From the NCBI GenBank assembly GCA_021108215.1, contig JAIORK010000033.1, positions 1 through 35,414 of the forward strand: a DNA stretch of 35,414 bases, given 5' to 3'. A program made the translations under genes and the position numbers. The notes beneath the pieces are model-generated. The model searched no databases. It saw only the letters and a program-made list of their open reading frames with translations, and was not told the DNA's origin. Below, piece after piece: positions 4,907 to 35,414 of the stretch (positions within the stretch are counted from its first letter, which is position 1; each line of letters begins with the position of its first letter). The stretch comes from a bacterium. GTDB taxonomy: Bacteria > Oederibacteriota > JAAXVQ01 > JAUVAV01.

Positions 4907-6280
4907 CTACTTTCTTTTTTTAACCACCCTGGCCGGAACACCGACTGCAACTGTCCCCGCCGGAATATGTGAACCGGCTTTGACCACCGCACCTGCGCCG
5001 GTCAAAGCCCGTTTGCCGATCCGGCAGGGTGCAATTAAGATACTCCCGCTGCCGATAAACGCTTTCTCCCCGATCAGGGTTGCCTGCTTACGAATCCCGT
5101 CATAATTTGCGATGATGGTTCCTGCACCAATATTGGTTTTTCGGCCGATGGTCGCATCCCCCAAATAAGCAACATGACCGACCTTCACGCCTTGTTTGAG
5201 ACGGCTGCGATTGGTCTCAGCAAAATTCCCAATATGCACACCGGATTCCACCACGGTTCCTTTGCGCAAATGAGAATAAGGCCCTACTGAAATTGCATTT
5301 GCCAACGTAGCGTGTTCTACCACGGAATAGCGTATGGTAACATCCAAACCTGTGCGGGATGAATCAATGGTGACATCCGGCCCAAGACAATTCTCCCGGC
5401 CAATCACGCTTTTCCCTGTGATCACTGTTCCGGGGAATATCTGGGTATCCCGGCCGATCACGACGTCCGGTCCAATCCATGTTCGGGCCGGATCCCAAAT
5501 CGTAACACCGCTTTCCATCAAGGCCTCAATTTTCCGTTGGTTTAATATCCCAGCTGCTGTGGCCAAATCGCGGCGGGTATTGATACCCACTATTTCCGAA
5601 GCCTCCGGCACACAAACCGCAGCAATCCTTTCACCTGCTTGGCGAAGCAATCCAATAATATCGGTGAGATAATATTCACCTTTTTTATTATTATTTTTCA
5701 GCCTACCCAGCATTTCCCTCAGGGTATCCATCGAAAAACAATATGCTCCGCTGTTTATTTCATGAATACTTTTTTCCGCCGGGCCAGCCTCTTTTTCCTC
5801 TACAATTTTCGTCACCCAGCGCGAATCCTTCAGATCGCGAATAATTCTACCATAGCCATACGGATCCGTGATCCGGGCCGTTAGAATGGTCGCCTTGGTT
5901 TTCCGACGTCTGTGTTCCCTGACCAATTTTTTCAAAGTCTGCGGTCGAATCAAGGGTGCGTCGCCGCAAAGAATCAACACCTCACCTTTTTCACCGGCCA
6001 GTTTCTTCTGCGCCATTTTCACGGCATGCCCGGTCCCCAATTGACGGGTCTGTGTAACGGTATCTACCTGCGCTGAAAGTGTTTTTGCCACATCTGCGGC
6101 CTGATGTCCCAGCACGACAATCGTCCGGGTTGCACCGGCTTTTTCTGATGCATCCAGCACCCATTGCAGAAGCGGCTTATTGCCAATGGTGTGAAGCACT
6201 TTCGGAGTACGGGATTTCATACGTGTCCCTTCTCCTGCTGCCAAAATGATGGTGATCAATGACTGTTTTTGTTTCTTCAC
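4907..6280 (-). CDS. glmU: Bifunctional GlcNAc-1-P uridyltransferase / GlcN-1-P acetyltransferase
   Basis: GlmU makes UDP-GlcNAc, the precursor of peptidoglycan and lipopolysaccharide. The N-terminal pyrophosphorylase domain has ILAAGEGTRMKSRTPKVLH, QLGTGHAV and LILCGDAPLI, then EINSGAYCF and GEYYLTDI. The C-terminal acetyltransferase is a left-handed beta-helix of hexapeptide repeats, including IGNFAETNRSRLKQG, HVAYLGDATIG and NIGAGTIIANYDG. The GTG at 6280 is preferred because GAGG lies 7 bases upstream, giving 457 residues, the normal length; another in-frame GTG lies at 6292. The start is only about 35 bases from the end of the 137-bp repeat array. Confidence 0.96.
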   Translation of the reverse strand: MKKQKQSLITIILAAGEGTRMKSRTPKVLHTIGNKPLLQWVLDASEKAGATRTIVVLGHQAADVAKTLSAQVDTVTQTRQLGTGHAVKMAQKKLAGEKGEVLILCGDAPLIRPQTLKKLVREHRRRKTKATILTARITDPYGYGRIIRDLKDSRWVTKIVEEKEAGPAEKSIHEINSGAYCFSMDTLREMLGRLKNNNKKGEYYLTDIIGLLRQAGERIAAVCVPEASEIVGINTRRDLATAAGILNQRKIEALMESGVTIWDPARTWIGPDVVIGRDTQIFPGTVITGKSVIGRENCLGPDVTIDSSRTGLDVTIRYSVVEHATLANAISVGPYSHLRKGTVVESGVHIGNFAETNRSRLKQGVKVGHVAYLGDATIGRKTNIGAGTIIANYDGIRKQATLIGEKAFIGSGSILIAPCRIGKRALTGAGAVVKAGSHIPAGTVAVGVPARVVKKRK

Positions 6281-6292
6281 AACCCGCCTCAC

Positions 6293-6315: not shown

Positions 6316-6767
6316 CGATTGTTCTGCTGCTCTGCCAAAATTTCGTAAAACGAAATCTAAATTAATCCCCAGTGGTTATCCTTCTCAAAAACCATTTCTT
6401 CTGATCAGTAGACCAGCAGACCGCCGCAGAACTTTTTTGCTGTTCCGCTGATCGATTGTTCTGCTGCTCTGCCAAAATTTCGTAAAACGAAATCTAAATT
6501 AATCCCCAGTGGTTATCCTTCTCAAAAACCATTTCTTCTGATCAGTAGACCAGCAGACCGCCGCAGAACTTTTTTGCTGTTCCGCTGATCGATTGTTCTG
6601 CTGCTCTGCCAAAATTTCGTAAAACGAAATCTAAATTAATCCCCAGTGGTTATCCTTCTCAAAAACCATTTCTTCTGATCAGTAGACCAGCAGACCGCCG
6701 CAGAACTTTTTTGCTGTTCCGCTGATCGATTGTTCTGCTGCTCTGCCAAAATTTCGTAAAACGAAAT
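6316..6767 (-). repeat. 3.3 tandem copies of a 137-bp repeat after tRNA-Gln
   Basis: The copies start at 6316, 6453 and 6590, and a partial 41-bp copy (6727-6767) abuts tRNA-Gln. The three full copies are identical by eye. The unit contains the tRNA-downstream block also found behind tRNA-Val, an ATTTCGT-TTT-ACGAAAT hairpin and a unique AT-rich spacer. The period is not a multiple of three and no convincing reading frame runs through it, so it is not a protein repeat. With tRNA-Gln it fills the gap between spoVG and glmU. The layout recalls the 178-bp repeats downstream of E. coli tyrT. Confidence 0.95.
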
Positions 6768-26968: not shown

Positions 26969-28084
26969 TTAGAAGTAAAGAATTGCCCGAAGCAGAATTA
27001 AAAAACCTTTGCCTTCGTTCTCAGCCAGTTTAAGATTTTTCTTTGCCTGAGTATAATTTTCATTAATTGCCAAAGCGCGTTTAAACTCATTAATCGCCCG
27101 GTTAAATAAAAACCTGCACTGAATGAGGTAGGCCACACCCAGATCATTGTGGATGTCAACATAGTGCGAATGCTTTTCCAGTATTTCTTCAAGCCGAATA
27201 ATATACTGTTCGGTGGCTCTGCGGTCAACACCTTCTTCTCCGTACTTTAAACGCAGATAAAATTCATGGTAAATTTCACTGCCGGTTTGCGACAATACTT
27301 CTGTCTTCGCTTCAATCAGCGCTTGGCGGGCCTCGTCGTACTGCTCCTTGCTTAGATAATTTTGCGCCACTTTAAAAAACTGATTGTTTAAGTAAGCATT
27401 GAATTCAACTGCCTTATTTAAATTTCGGGTGATACGCTGCTGCACGTCTTCCGTCGGCGTACCGTTGCCTGCCACTTGCGACACAAGACATAATCCAATA
27501 TTAAAATAGGCCTCGGCATATTTTCCATTAATTTCAATGGCGTGGTTGAATTCCTTCTGCGCATCCTCAAATTCCCCGGATTTTAGTAACGCAAGCCCAT
27601 AATTATTATGCAGATCAGGATAGGTTGGTTTGAGTTCGACGGCACGTTTAAATACCTTAAGCGCCTCGGCATGCTTTTCTTCCAGTAAAAGAGCCAGACC
27701 CAAATGATTCAAAACCGGCGCACTCTCGGGAGAAAGTGAGAGTGCGCGTTTAAATTCAGCGATGGTTTCCCTGCCCATACCATTGTGCAAAAAAACCAAC
27801 CCCAGTTTATGATTGGAGTCAACATTAGGTTTGACTTCCAGTTTAGCGGAAATCTTCATGAGTTCCTGCAAACCATTGACTCTCTCATGATGCTGCAATT
27901 TGACCCGTTCCATAAGGTTTTCATCACTCAAAGCAGGATCATAGGGAATCTCACGTGTATTGATAACTTTGTCTTTATCATTCAGATTAATCACAATCCT
28001 CCGGATCGAATCAAAATTCATGGTCCGAACAGTATAATCATATTGTTTACCGTGGATTGTTGATGTAAAGCTAAACCCACTCAA
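26969..28084 (-). CDS. TPR protein of the signalling block
   Basis: The TTG at 28084 is chosen as start because GGAGGGA lies 6 bases upstream and it then begins 22 bases after the STAS stop; an upstream TTG (28123) would overlap STAS. The 371-residue protein has no signal peptide, so it is probably cytoplasmic. The first ~80 residues form a distinct domain (GFSFTSTIHGKQYDYTVRTM, IRRIVINLNDKDKVINTREI) that I do not recognise. Then come TPR repeats (GRETIAEFKRALSLSPESAP, AEALKVFKRAVELKPTYPD, RAINEFKRALAINENYTQA). It may be a scaffold for the phosphatase/STAS pair; this is inferred from the operon only. Confidence 0.85.
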   Translation of the reverse strand: MSGFSFTSTIHGKQYDYTVRTMNFDSIRRIVINLNDKDKVINTREIPYDPALSDENLMERVKLQHHERVNGLQELMKISAKLEVKPNVDSNHKLGLVFLHNGMGRETIAEFKRALSLSPESAPVLNHLGLALLLEEKHAEALKVFKRAVELKPTYPDLHNNYGLALLKSGEFEDAQKEFNHAIEINGKYAEAYFNIGLCLVSQVAGNGTPTEDVQQRITRNLNKAVEFNAYLNNQFFKVAQNYLSKEQYDEARQALIEAKTEVLSQTGSEIYHEFYLRLKYGEEGVDRRATEQYIIRLEEILEKHSHYVDIHNDLGVAYLIQCRFLFNRAINEFKRALAINENYTQAKKNLKLAENEGKGFLILLRAILYF

Positions 28085-28106
28085 GAAACGTCCCTCCAAT
28101 GCATCA

Positions 28107-28898
28107 TTAAATATCTCTGGCAAATTTAAAACGATTTTTTTTGGACCCGAGATTGTTATATTTCAATTCCGCCCGGACTTCTCCCCAACTAACCTTGGGT
28201 TGCGATCCGCGGCGGAAATTTAATTCATTTTTCAACTTCCAGGCTCCCCAATCAGGATGTGCCTTGACCAAACCCCGAATACGGTCAATCAACGGCAGCA
28301 AAGACGATGATGGCTTCTTGGGCGCTCCCATTGCCGGCTGTGATGCCGCCGCAGGTTGCACCACTGAAACCGGAGACGGCGCAGACGCTGCTGCCGGTCT
28401 GGTAACCTGCGGAGCAACGGGTCTGACCGCGGCCGGAGTAACGCGGGGTGCAACCGGCTGAGGTGCCGGGTTGGGTGGTGGCGCGAATTTGGCCGGCGCT
28501 GCGACGACCGGTTTCGGCTGAGATTTTTCAACCGGCGCTGTTCCGGGTTCAAAAAGCCTGACGGCATCGGCAACCGTGTTCGCTGATGTCAGAATGGTTG
28601 AAAACTCAAGCAACTCATAAACTTCATTGACTGTTTCGGACATCAAAGCAAGTTTTAGATCACCGTGATGGGTCCGGATATTTTTAATCTCAGAAATAAA
28701 AATACCCCAGCCGGCTGAACTGATATAATCAACACTTTGCAGATCAATAATAATTTTATAGTGCTGCTCCCGAAGCAGCCCCTGGATCACCCGCTCCAAT
28801 TCTCCTGAAGTGGTCGTATCAATGTATCCCGAGATTTTGACAACATAGAGATCCTTTTGCGCTCCGGTCGTTTCAACGGCAATTTGAATACCTTCCAT
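28107..28898 (-). CDS. STAS-domain protein with C-terminal winged-helix domain
   Basis: Residues about 5-115 form a STAS domain like anti-sigma-factor antagonists (SpoIIAA/RsbV), with the phosphorylation-site motif VDYISSAGWG (Ser60/Ser61). A Pro/Ala/Val-rich linker (about 118-195) follows. The last ~65 residues (LLPLIDRIRGLVKAHPDWGAW, KLKNELN, KVSWGEVRAELKYNNLG) resemble the winged-helix segment of transposases. They also resemble the C-terminus of the neighbouring phosphatase (P-x-x-G, L, RG, KV, S, V, ELK, L, R in register). Phosphorylation by the HATPase and dephosphorylation by the PP2C domain next door are likely from family knowledge. DNA binding is inference. Confidence 0.85.
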   Translation of the reverse strand: MEGIQIAVETTGAQKDLYVVKISGYIDTTTSGELERVIQGLLREQHYKIIIDLQSVDYISSAGWGIFISEIKNIRTHHGDLKLALMSETVNEVYELLEFSTILTSANTVADAVRLFEPGTAPVEKSQPKPVVAAPAKFAPPPNPAPQPVAPRVTPAAVRPVAPQVTRPAAASAPSPVSVVQPAAASQPAMGAPKKPSSSLLPLIDRIRGLVKAHPDWGAWKLKNELNFRRGSQPKVSWGEVRAELKYNNLGSKKNRFKFARDI

Positions 28899-28945
28899 AG
28901 ATCGACTCCTTTTTATCGTCCAGATAATATCATACCAAAAGTACG

Positions 28946-31411
28946 CTAGTCAACTTTCTTCTTGGCAACATACTCTTCACGCTCTTCGCGCGTTGAAAGC
29001 CGCAACCGTTTCAACTCCTGATAAACCATTTTGGGAGATAGCTTTACTTTCCCCCGCTTCATCTTAGCCAAGTCTTCTGAAATTCTCTTGGACCCAAATA
29101 GGGGATTTCGCATTACCGCGTCAACAATCTGCTGGCGTTCGGCTAAAGAAAGCTGCTGCATCTGAACATCTTTTCTGGCGATATTGCTCCGCAAGGCCTT
29201 GATCCCATGCTTGTCCCGTAATTGCTTCAGTCGGTAATAGGTTGTTGTCGATACATTTAAGTGTCGGCAAGCCTCGCGAACCGACACACCTTTTTCTTCA
29301 ACCAAATAGAAAAGTTTCCGGCGAAGATTGAACTGCACATCATCCGCCATCATCTTCTCCTTCACCGCCACACAGGTGATGTCATCATTTTGGGGATAGT
29401 CCTCAGTAAACGTGACAATATCATCAGAAAGTTTGCCGATAAAATCCTCGGCAGAAAGCTTGTGATTTTGTTTCATAAGATCAATCAGGCGCTGTTCACC
29501 ATACTGTTCCCGCCGGGGATTCATGGCTTCGGTAATACCATCTGTATAGACCAATAATAAATCCCCTTTTTTCAATTTGACGCTTTCCTGTGTCAATGAT
29601 TTCCTAAAAAGATCCGGATTGGGCAAATCAATTCCCAATGGAAATCCGCGGGGTTTTAAAAAATAAACTTCTTCATTTTCTTCACGATAGAGGATCATCG
29701 GATTATGGCCGGCGCTGGAATAATTAATCACACGCCGCCGTGCATCTAAAATAATGTAAAACATGGTGACAAACATGCCTTTTTTCATATCGCGGGTCAC
29801 AAAAGCATTCACTTTATCCATTACCTCGGTTGCGTTGTGGTTGCCCCGCGCCTCCAACCGCAAGGCGGTCCGAATCATGGTCATCACCAATGATCCGGGA
29901 ATCCCTTTACCGGAAACATCCGCGACCGCCACGCCTAAAACATTATCATCGACCCAGACAAAATCAAAATAATCACCACCGACTTCTTTGGCACTCCGGT
30001 AATAACTCGCGACCTCATAGCCCTCAATTTTCGGCAACTCACGCGGCAAAAGTGTATGCTGAATTTCCTGCGCCACCTGCATTTCCTGTTGGAGACGCTC
30101 CTGCTCAAGCAGGTTGTGCTGGGCGGCATTAAATTTCTGCGTCATCTCATTAAACACATTGGCAATCTGCCCAAATTCATCATTGCTCTGAATCATAATC
30201 CGATGATCCAGTTTCCCCTGGCTAACCGCCAGCATCCCATCGGTCAATTTCCGGATTGGCGCAATTAAAAATGCCATTAGAAAATAGGCACCTGAAGTAC
30301 TTACTGCCAGAGCAATGAAAAAAATGAGCACTGCGTTTTTTCGGCCGGTCTTAATATCTTGTAAAATAGCGTCTTCCAAAACACCGATATGTGCAGTTCC
30401 CAGCCGCATATCCCCCAGATAAATCGAAGCACTAATGTTGTGCACCTCTTTTTTATTTCCATCCTGAATACTTTGAATAACCGTCTCTTGTTTTTTCGGA
30501 AGCTTGAATCCCGGTCCGGGTGTAAATGATTTGAACATTTTTTGAGTAACCGAATGGGCATAAATCAAATTTTCATTATCCACAATAAATGCATAGGCCA
30601 GTTTGGTATTGGTCTGCACCATGGTTTTCACCAGCCCGGTCAAGTGAAGGTCATCATGTTTGAGCAGATAGTTCTCCGAATCCTGCGCAAGCCGCCTGGT
30701 GGCTTCCATGGCGCTGGAAATAATCTCACTGCGCATCGATTTTGCCTGATTGGAAAACATATAAGCAAAAATCACAAGCACCAAAACAGCCACCGAGATG
30801 GTTACAGGAAAGAGATATTTAATACTGACACTGCTCATCCGGCGTTGCTTTGGCTGCGCAACCGCCGACGTTGTTTCCGCGGATCCCTCCGGCAGAGCCG
30901 GTACCTGTCCGATTTTTTTTCCTCCGGCTTTAACCTTTTTCAACAGGCGGAGTCGATTGCCCTGCCGGGTACTTTTATAGTCGGCATCATCCATAAGCTT
31001 ACGGATAAACCAAATACCCAATCCACCCCGCTTGCCGATCTCTACATAACGATTAAGATCCGGAGTTTTGGATTTTTTCCATTCAAAACTTTTCCCACGG
31101 TCAATAACAACAACTTCCATTTCATCGGTACGCCGTAAAACTTCCAGTTTTAAACTACCTGGTTCCATCCCTTTGTAGGCATGACGCACCACATTGGAAC
31201 ACGCTTCGTCCAATGCCAGTTTGATGTTATTGATTTCATGTTGAGAAAAACCGGTTTCAACCGAAACCTGGGTGATAAAATCCCGAATCTCACCCAAATG
31301 ACGTTCCTCGGCCGTGACTTCAATCTCGTATTTTTGTACAACCGGTTTTTTAAATAACTTGGAAAGAATTCCCGCCAATGTCTCTTTCCCCTCACTCTCG
31401 TTTGTCCTCAA
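28946..31411 (-). CDS. Membrane HATPase-HAMP-PP2C phosphatase with C-terminal transposase-like HTHs
   Basis: The 821-residue protein has an RsbW-like HATPase domain (about 28-160: N-box LALDEACSNVVRHAYKG, IDRGKSF, GKRGGLGIWFI) and a transmembrane helix (196-219). A ~135-residue sensor segment, probably periplasmic, and a second helix (358-383) follow. Next are a HAMP domain (384-437) and a SpoIIE/PP2C phosphatase (about 445-685: VGGDYFDF, VADVSGKGIPGSLVM, SSAGHNPMIL, YTDGITEAMN, NDDITCVAV). Residues 700-815 are two helix-turn-helix units like transposase N-termini (GVSVREACRHLNVSTTTYYR; NPLFGSKRISEDLAKMKRG). It is thus a membrane sensor with both kinase and phosphatase parts, probably acting on the STAS protein 47 bases downstream. 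The TTG start is uncertain; a TTG at 31378 is also plausible. Confidence 0.9.
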   Translation of the reverse strand: MRTNESEGKETLAGILSKLFKKPVVQKYEIEVTAEERHLGEIRDFITQVSVETGFSQHEINNIKLALDEACSNVVRHAYKGMEPGSLKLEVLRRTDEMEVVVIDRGKSFEWKKSKTPDLNRYVEIGKRGGLGIWFIRKLMDDADYKSTRQGNRLRLLKKVKAGGKKIGQVPALPEGSAETTSAVAQPKQRRMSSVSIKYLFPVTISVAVLVLVIFAYMFSNQAKSMRSEIISSAMEATRRLAQDSENYLLKHDDLHLTGLVKTMVQTNTKLAYAFIVDNENLIYAHSVTQKMFKSFTPGPGFKLPKKQETVIQSIQDGNKKEVHNISASIYLGDMRLGTAHIGVLEDAILQDIKTGRKNAVLIFFIALAVSTSGAYFLMAFLIAPIRKLTDGMLAVSQGKLDHRIMIQSNDEFGQIANVFNEMTQKFNAAQHNLLEQERLQQEMQVAQEIQHTLLPRELPKIEGYEVASYYRSAKEVGGDYFDFVWVDDNVLGVAVADVSGKGIPGSLVMTMIRTALRLEARGNHNATEVMDKVNAFVTRDMKKGMFVTMFYIILDARRRVINYSSAGHNPMILYREENEEVYFLKPRGFPLGIDLPNPDLFRKSLTQESVKLKKGDLLLVYTDGITEAMNPRREQYGEQRLIDLMKQNHKLSAEDFIGKLSDDIVTFTEDYPQNDDITCVAVKEKMMADDVQFNLRRKLFYLVEEKGVSVREACRHLNVSTTTYYRLKQLRDKHGIKALRSNIARKDVQMQQLSLAERQQIVDAVMRNPLFGSKRISEDLAKMKRGKVKLSPKMVYQELKRLRLSTREEREEYVAKKKVD

Positions 31412-33231: not shown

Positions 33232-35414
33232 TTATTTAAGCACTGCGATTTTCAGTACCAATTGCTTACTCTCGCCGCCTTGTACCGGTTTTATTTGTAA
33301 AACCGCAAAGTAAATACCATTGAGTACAATCTGCCCGCTGCCGTTTCGGCCGTCCCAAGTATAGCGAAATAAACTATTGGAAACCGGTTGAATCTGAGCC
33401 GGTACGATCACCTTGACCAACTGTCCTACGATATTATATATCTTAAGACTGACTTCCGCTTCCGCTTCAAGAAAATATTCTAAATCTGTGGACTGACGGC
33501 CGGCAATAAACGGATTGGGATAATTAATAAATGATTCGGCAAGTACGCGCGAACGTATCGCAACATCATCGGAAAACATCGGAAAAGTATCCGTGCTTGC
33601 CGAGCGCACCAGCATTGTGGTGCCATCCAGGAAACGCGACTCCAGGTGAGCCGCCTCTGAAATACCAATCCGCAGGGTCGCAATTGAAGTCACCGATGCG
33701 ATGGTGATCTGTACATGTAATCGTCTGGTTTGTTCCGGATAGATAAGCAAACTTTGTGCCGGAAAGCTGATATATTGCGTGTCTCCGGCTGCGGGTATGC
33801 TGATCGCAGCCAGTATCGCCTGATTCTGACCATCCAGCACAGCAATATGTGAAATCGCTTGGTTAAAAGCTACTGCGTGTCCCTGATAGTCGCCGGCAGT
33901 CAAGGTCAAACCCATAACATCATACACCGAAGAACCGGAAGCATTGGGATTGCTAAGATTCAATGCGAGCATATCAATGTTGGACTCACCCTGCAAAGCG
34001 GTGATGGGTGCCAGCGATTGATGGTCCATCTCTAAATAAGGATCTAAGGAGTGAGTTCCGGCATCACAAGGTATCGGGCGTGTCGTTCCCGGCAGAATGA
34101 ATGACGGCGTAAGAGCATTTGCCAAAATGGTAAACGTCTGTCCCGGCACCATCAATCGCGGCGTCACCACCGCCTCACCATTCACCAAATTCACTTCATT
34201 GGGCAATTCTTGCACATCGCCGACAGTCCCTGAGGGAGTCAAAATCAGTATACCATTAAGCGATACTGTCTGAAATGTACTCATATCAAGCACACGAATC
34301 GTAATTGTGACTGGGTAACCGGCAATGGCTGTGGCAACAGTCCCGGTATAACCGGGATTAACACCGGCAGTAAATGTTTCGTTGTCCGTAACCAGAACCA
34401 ATTGGTAAACCGGCGTGGGTGTGGCTGTCATTGTAATCGTAGGGGTCGGTGTGATCGTACCGGTCTGTGTCCGGGTATGTGTGGCGGTGGCGGTTACGGT
34501 CACAGTAAACGTCAAACTTCCTGTTGGCGACGGCGTCGGCGTCGCCGAAGGTGTCGCTGTCATCGTCGCTGTCGGGGTCACGGTGGCTGTATGAGTCAGG
34601 GTTGCCGTCGTGGTTGCCGTATAAGTCACGGTGGCTGTGGGGGTCGGTGTATACGTCGGTGACGCAGTAAGGGTCACGGTTAAAGTGGGCGTAGCGGTCG
34701 GCGTCACCGTAAGTGTCGCCGTAAATGTCACGGTTGCAGTCGGCGTCGCAGTCGGTGTCATTGTAAACGTCGGGGTAAACGTCGGGGTCGCGGTTGCGGT
34801 TGCGGTAAACGTCGGCGTTGCGGTCGGCGTTGCAGTCGGGGTGGCGGTCATGGTAAACGGTGGTGTATCGGTTGGCGTGACCGTCGGGGTGGCCGTATAG
34901 GTCGGGGTCGCGGTCGGAGTATGTGTCGGTGTAAATGTCGGCGTAACCGTTGCTGTTGCTGTAATTACAGTTACATATTGTATTTTCGTAACCGGTGTTG
35001 TTGTTTGATAGGTTCCGTCATTGAGATAAGAATTCCAGTAATAAACGCCACCACTACCGGGCGCTGTGGCTGTAAGTGTAATACTGTCAAAAACACCGAC
35101 ACTCATGGGCGGTGTATACGTTATTTGAATTTGACTTCCCGCAAATGAAACCAGCCCGCCTAAAATATTAGAGGACGGTGTTGTCGGTACCGCCCATCCT
35201 GAAGGAATTGAAATATAAAGTGTATTAATATCACTATTGCCTCTTGCCACGACTGTATATTCATAGTTCTGGGTTTGATTGAGTAATGTCACATTGTCTT
35301 CAATATAGGCATCCGCCCACGGTGTATTGGTCGGTGTAACGCTTGGTGTAATCGTCGCAGTATACGTCGGCGTATACGTCGGGGTGGCTGTTGGTGTAGC
35401 AGTATAGGTCGGCG
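33232..35414 (-). CDS. Thr/Pro-rich surface protein (5' end outside the window)
   Basis: The frame is open to the right edge, so the N-terminus is missing; at least 727 residues are visible. From the edge: a Thr/Pro stretch (35414 to about 35320), a beta-sandwich-like domain (35300-35000), and about 190 residues in which nearly every second residue is Thr (about 34970-34410, such as [20 protein letters not shown]). Then follow Ig-like beta domains and a C-terminal module with [28 protein letters not shown] and GIYFAVLQI. This last module is the FlgD-Ig/type IX-like end seen on surface proteins of many candidate phyla. The Thr stretch is a likely extended, possibly glycosylated linker. The product is probably an exported adhesin or surface-layer protein; the cargo route is unproven. 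Confidence 0.85.
34410..34975 (-). repeat. Low-complexity DNA encoding the Thr-x repeat
   Basis: On the minus strand an ACN codon occurs every six bases, mixed with CCN, GCN, GTN and TTY codons. The plus strand therefore reads as long GTC/GGT-rich frames (Val-Gly), which are artefacts. A second, shorter run lies at about 35320-35414. Confidence 0.85.

Follow-up and report, generated by a model that had tools for sequence, protein, structure and literature searches.

What does a STAS protein act upon when both it and the enzyme that should control it end in related domains of a DNA-binding type? The question is raised by two adjoining genes of a bacterium of the phylum Oederibacteriota (assembly GCA_021108215.1), located in the window analysed here, that is, the whole stretch of 35,414 nucleotides of contig JAIORK010000033.1. 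One gene (28946..31411, minus strand, like the STAS and TPR genes and all domains mapped below; 821 amino acids as listed) encodes, according to its open reading frame and Pfam domains, a membrane kinase/phosphatase with a helix-turn-helix (HTH) tail, hereafter the PP2C protein, and the other (28107..28898; open reading frame, Pfam and AlphaFold model) encodes a STAS-HTH protein of 263 amino acids. On balance, we lean towards reading the two as a membrane signalling switch of two proteins that acts through binding of the STAS protein to DNA.

The first-pass annotation of this locus had lined up the C-termini of both proteins by eye and considered them related. Because single-sequence BLASTP of the STAS tail against the PP2C tail was only marginal (E 0.026), the comparison was made with profiles, for which orthologues were drawn from 45 genomes of the same phylum, and seven STAS tails (A1) and seven PP2C tails (A2) were aligned; our survey covered this phylum, whose public relatives go by FCPU426, Goldiibacteriota/Goldbacteria or Firestonebacteria, in addition to a close-relative scan of genome contigs. 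The profile-profile comparison gave a probability of 96.3% and an E-value of 1.5e-9 over 59 columns. Since E-values of single pairs can mislead, the columns of the STAS alignment were also shuffled, and the real score of 54.4 compares with a mean of 11.2 (standard deviation 2.4, maximum 20.0) in 200 shuffles and with 12.3 for the reversed alignment. Moreover, when searched with a hidden Markov model (HMM) of the PP2C tail, six of the seven genomes holding a STAS tail return it (1.9e-6 to 1.3e-4 per genome; the window's own genome is not listed), and the HMM of the STAS tail picks up PP2C tails in six genomes (3.9e-5 to 0.0033) and, at E <= 0.01 across the 45 genomes, no gene family beyond STAS-HTH and PP2C. 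A match in Holophagaceae (L038) was rejected as a chance match of 13 residues in an unrelated open reading frame resembling a von Willebrand-type/Bat protein. The line-up seen by eye was real, although profiles were needed to establish it, and the similarity is significant, confirming at the sequence level that the C-termini of the PP2C and STAS proteins are homologous HTH domains.

The origin of these domains is indicated by the PP2C tail of the window, which matches the IS481 transposase model NF033577 (NCBIfam) at E 1.5e-13 (positions 2-115 of 284), a model that is also matched by 16 of 25 PP2C relatives (best 1e-16), which supports HTH-type tails derived from transposases and agrees with their earlier description as transposase-like. 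The additional HTH that had been described ahead of the second domain of the phosphatase was likewise recovered: residues 689-735 (29207..29347; HTH_28 in 7/7, AlphaFold) correspond to the first half of the bipartite DNA-binding domain of IS481-type transposases, followed by the second HTH and C-terminal helix, homologous to the STAS tail (residues 756-820, 28952..29146; profiles, NF033577, AlphaFold). Judged from these matches, the PP2C tail has the complete bipartite DNA-binding domain of such transposases and lacks the catalytic domain. IS481 transposases share the N-terminal bipartite HTH domain with it but have a DDE catalytic domain, whereas the PP2C protein ends after the HTH and occupies the same locus across families of the phylum. 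Foldseek searches with the PP2C tail placed TnsB transposases at the top ranks in PDB and also listed Pax5, Pax6 and SETMAR, all of them bipartite DNA-binding domains, at weak E-values (0.2-2.7), and the sequence searches of the tail profiles against PDB gave nothing better than E 0.01. AlphaFold models obtained from separate alignments with no rows in common predicted the same four-helix layout in the second domain of the PP2C tail (helices 756-768, 774-784, 793-802 and 808-820) and in the STAS tail (203-213, 219-228, 238-247 and 253-262). No wing strands were predicted in either model, so that the label of winged helix is not supported and "helix-turn-helix plus C-terminal helix" is the better description.

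In the STAS protein, Pfam detects the STAS domain alone (residues 14-112, 28563..28859, 4.2e-15), and a disordered, Pro/Ala-rich linker of low model confidence (residues about 117-199, 28302..28550, pLDDT mostly 44-67) leads to the C-terminal HTH (residues 203-262, 28113..28292, four helices, pLDDT about 90). Between the same genome pairs, identity reaches 75% in the STAS domain, 71% in the STAS tail, 54% in the second HTH of the PP2C protein and 23% in the linker; the similar values of the tail and the STAS domain and the low value of the linker argue that the STAS tail is under selection. Besides, the STAS tail is basic in 7/7 cases, with an isoelectric point of 10.4-11.1 and a net charge of +7 to +11.

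The PP2C tail was found with the A2 model in 28 of the 45 genomes (a few of the matches being STAS tails or transposases), and the STAS tail is confined to families f1 and f2, which represent the window's order. The STAS tails score 54.4 against PP2C tails of the same order; with PP2C tails from other families the scores drop to 46.6 and 36.9, and with transposases of the phylum to 26.4. In the tree the STAS tails form a single clade (100/100) on a long branch, placed among PP2C tails with modest support. Considering that the STAS tail occurs in the window's order only, is much nearer to the PP2C tail than to transposases, is basic and is conserved like the STAS domain, it was probably copied from the partner PP2C gene. 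It is quite unlikely, in our view, that the STAS tail was captured straight from a transposase and owes its likeness to the PP2C tail solely to the fact that each is a transposase HTH. IS481/IS3-type transposases are indeed present in most genomes of the phylum, and the STAS tails match HTH_21 in 6/7 cases (best 5e-4) as well as Tc3-type HTH models, but the gap between the scores with PP2C tails and with transposases and the position in the tree argue against such a capture, as does the C-terminal helix (L-x-T-x-x-x-R-x-x-Y/F), which aligns between both tails and lies outside the STAS-transposase alignment. The history would then have started early in the phylum, when the phosphatase captured a transposase DNA-binding domain, the second half of which would have been copied later, in one order, onto the adjoining STAS gene. 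An assembly error or a single transposon insertion behind the PP2C tail was rejected, given that the tail occurs at the same place in relatives of many families. In families f13-f16 (L109-L112, L114-L119) the PP2C-HTH gene is found upstream of hisD-hisC-hisB-like genes and not beside STAS. In family f10 (L014, L021, L022, L023, L028) a STAS protein has another kind of short tail, which ends in LF-x-PWKWF, and therefore STAS C-termini were extended repeatedly in this phylum.

The catalytic part of the system resembles that of classical partner switches. The fusion of a kinase-like domain to the phosphatase, as previously annotated, is borne out by the Pfam architecture of the PP2C protein, which comprises HATPase_c_2 (28-157), a transmembrane segment, sCache_3_2 (226-354), another transmembrane segment, HAMP, SpoIIE (489-684), HTH_28 (707-745) and a weak HTH_32 (726-798). 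The RsbW-type serine-kinase domain (30941..31330, Pfam 6.1e-27) has RsbW 6m36 as its best PDB match (E 3.1e-15), and its N-box E69/N73, D104-G106 and GGLG 129-132, ATP-binding glycines included, are intact and invariant in all relatives covering those residues. In the SpoIIE/PP2C phosphatase (about residues 440-684, 29360..30094; Pfam 1.6e-48, conservation), the metal-binding aspartates D480, D498, D676 and D677 are invariant in 26 proteins. The sCache_3_2 sensor domain (30350..30736; Pfam 8.2e-12, hydropathy) is flanked by transmembrane-like segments at residues 200-218 and 361-379, an arrangement which suggests that the sensor probably lies outside the cell, with kinase, phosphatase and tail in the cytoplasm. 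On the substrate side, the STAS domain resembles SpoIIAA/RsbV with Foldseek TM-scores (target) of 0.86-0.92, and its YISSAG motif aligns with YMDSTG of RsbV (PDB 6m36), with Ser61 (28716..28718), the predicted phospho-acceptor, opposite the phosphorylated serine of RsbV; residues S60, S61, A62 and G63 are nearly invariant. Taken together, the intact kinase and phosphatase residues and the alignment of Ser61 indicate that the input half of the partner switch is intact, as far as sequence can tell.

Among open-licence papers dealing with STAS and HTH domains, the sole direct precedent found for the output half was CapK-CapS, a regulator of immune operons controlled by DNA damage (EMBO J 2026, PMC13373217). 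CapS is a STAS repressor with a winged HTH that binds palindromic DNA as a dimer and leaves the DNA when the GHKL kinase CapK phosphorylates the equivalent STAS serine (PMC13373217). Both systems combine a GHKL serine kinase with an adjacent STAS protein bearing a C-terminal HTH, use a conserved STAS serine as phosphorylation site (predicted here) and carry an HTH on the kinase protein as well. However, CapK has the order HTH-STAS-GHKL and is activated by single-stranded DNA, whereas the order here is HATPase-TM (transmembrane)-sCache-TM-HAMP-PP2C-HTH-HTH, and the MarR/ArsR-like winged HTH of CapS directly follows the STAS domain, unlike the wingless IS481-type/HTH_21-like HTH found here after a linker of ~80 residues. 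In addition, homology links the PP2C tail with the STAS tail here, and no immune operon lies nearby. By analogy, the present system would work like CapK-CapS, yet it is not a member of that group, given the differences in kinase architecture, HTH family, linker and genomic setting. The publication in 2026 of a STAS transcription factor with a winged HTH under control of a GHKL kinase (PMC13373217) means that "a new wiring of the partner switch" can no longer be upheld as a categorical claim. What is new here in comparison with CapK-CapS is the transmembrane Cache-HAMP sensor, the built-in PP2C phosphatase and the transposase-type HTH on both partners; the open-licence papers searched yielded no description of a PP2C/kinase and its STAS substrate that both carry homologous HTH tails.

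The transposase ancestry of the tail, its basic charge and constraint and the precedent of CapK-CapS make it most likely that the STAS-HTH protein regulates by binding DNA, with the membrane sensor kinase/phosphatase setting its phosphorylation. In such a switch, the fused RsbW-type kinase would phosphorylate Ser61, and triggering of the Cache sensor would make the PP2C domain remove the phosphate. By analogy with CapS, dimers of the unphosphorylated STAS protein would regulate transcription by placing their two HTH tails on DNA, and phosphorylation would break the dimer, or pass the protein to another partner, and thereby remove it from DNA. The bipartite HTH of the phosphatase probably binds DNA too, or may place the enzyme near its DNA-bound substrate. 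The direction of the switch (phosphorylated meaning off DNA) is taken over from CapS and is uncertain, because phosphorylated STAS proteins elsewhere gain partners, as is the case for HsbA (PMC6482189).

Several observations weigh against DNA binding as the output. No operator was found, and the aligned upstream regions of PP2C genes show no conserved one; in several relatives the genes overlap or nearly so, and the remaining regions are too divergent. The predicted recognition helix of the STAS tail contains the acidic residues E240 and E244, and the ELK motif common to both tails would also fit a protein-contact surface. Furthermore, the STAS protein has the second HTH only and not the full bipartite domain, and the long branch of its tail leaves an origin from the PP2C tail likely and not proven. 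Finally, further HATPase_c_2 proteins and a pair of FliA/WhiG-like sigma factors are encoded elsewhere in the genome, so that a distant sigma output is possible.

The first-pass annotation had stated that neither a sigma factor nor a free anti-sigma factor lies nearby, which holds for this contig, where neither a sigma factor gene nor a second HATPase_c_2 gene was found, and does not extend to the genome, where both types occur. These elsewhere-encoded proteins, the RsbW-like character of the kinase domain and the example of HsbA, which serves the two partners HsbR and FlgM (PMC6482189), could speak for a classical partner switch with an add-on, in which the STAS domain would keep a sigma factor under its control by way of the fused HATPase_c_2 kinase or a different one, with the HTH tail serving for localisation only. 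We judge this unlikely, considering the absence of both kinds of genes from the contig and the fact that no sigma factor of the SigB/F/G type exceeded the TIGR02980 cut-off in the genome, the FliA/WhiG-like and RpoD-like matches being below it. The same genome also codes for STAS and HATPase_c_2, substrate and kinase, fused in one protein (L140:1480-2805, an open frame of 442 amino acids). Among known systems, RsbU/RsbW/RsbV and SpoIIE/SpoIIAB/SpoIIAA share the same three enzymatic and substrate folds and the same position of the acceptor serine, but they consist of separate proteins with a sigma factor output and have no DNA-binding domain. SypE-SypA of Vibrio fischeri (PMC10120452) also combines an N-terminal RsbW-like kinase and a C-terminal PP2C in one protein with a STAS partner and no known sigma output; however, SypE has a central receiver domain and neither membrane sensor nor HTH, and SypA is a bare STAS domain. 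Similarly, in HsbR-HsbA/CrsR-CrsA of Pseudomonas and Shewanella (PMC6482189) a single protein that unites PP2C and kinase controls a STAS protein, but the order is receiver-PP2C-kinase, the outputs are RpoS, FliA (via FlgM) and HsbD, and neither protein carries an HTH.

Another explanation, which we consider doubtful although somewhat less so than a classical switch, is that the HTH-like domain is a module for protein-protein contact, the STAS tail pairing with the phosphatase tail so that enzyme and substrate meet, and the output being a third protein such as the TPR protein of the operon, encoded by the third gene of the block (26969..28123; TPR Pfam matches, synteny in relatives). The tails are homologous and located on cognate partners, and therefore a duplicated dimerising domain would yield a heterodimer; the PP2C tails of families f12-f16 keep the second HTH although the first has decayed; and the gene order PP2C-STAS-TPR is conserved in families f1, f2, f9 and f10, according to synteny in relatives. 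Nevertheless, families f9 and f10 have a tailed PP2C protein beside a plain STAS protein without any tail, and therefore the PP2C tail has a role needing no STAS tail. Moreover, the fold and the strong basic charge are those of DNA-binding domains. It is also conceivable, but rather improbable, that both proteins sit on the same or adjoining DNA through their homologous HTHs, the membrane-anchored kinase/phosphatase tethering the operator at the membrane through its bipartite domain and there loading or stripping the STAS-HTH protein by phosphorylation and dephosphorylation. In that case the pair would represent a one-step partner switch from membrane to DNA, for which a domesticated transposase domain and a duplicate of it supplied the parts.

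With regard to the locus itself, the PP2C protein probably starts at the TTG at 31378 (810 amino acids) rather than at 31411, because this TTG is aligned in several relatives. The tailed PP2C gene follows an outer-membrane/TPR gene and has a similar neighbourhood in relatives, and the surrounding genes examined by Pfam encode housekeeping, TPR and envelope proteins, with no immune operon among them. The TPR gene follows STAS in f1 and f2, and a related gene is also found there in f9/f10; the C-terminal sequence GKGFLILLRAILYF of the TPR protein is near-invariant in f1/f2, which suggests contact with the membrane or with a partner. The outer-membrane/TPR gene is itself preceded, one gene upstream and with a similar order in relatives, by a gene for a large protein of secreted type (33232-35292), which has a FlgD-like C-terminal end and a long stretch of Thr/Pro-rich repeats. 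Elsewhere in the window, a perfect tandem repeat (6316-6767; unit of 137 bp, 3.3 copies, 100% identity) is situated shortly upstream of the coding start of a minus-strand NTP-transferase/hexapeptide (GlmU-like) open reading frame (4907-6292), and the contig edge (1-55) consists of the 8-bp repeat GAACAGCG in 6.9 copies, which looks like a contig break in low-complexity sequence or a repeat array.

Many STAS proteins are not known to act on a sigma factor. To the question of how such proteins reach gene expression, a STAS protein that carries an HTH itself and is under a membrane kinase/phosphatase offers a direct and testable answer, in a second form unrelated to CapK-CapS. A signalling enzyme here took up the DNA-binding domain of a transposase, which apparently was then passed on to the enzyme's substrate, and this makes a clear example of a signalling pathway that evolves through duplication of a domain between partners.

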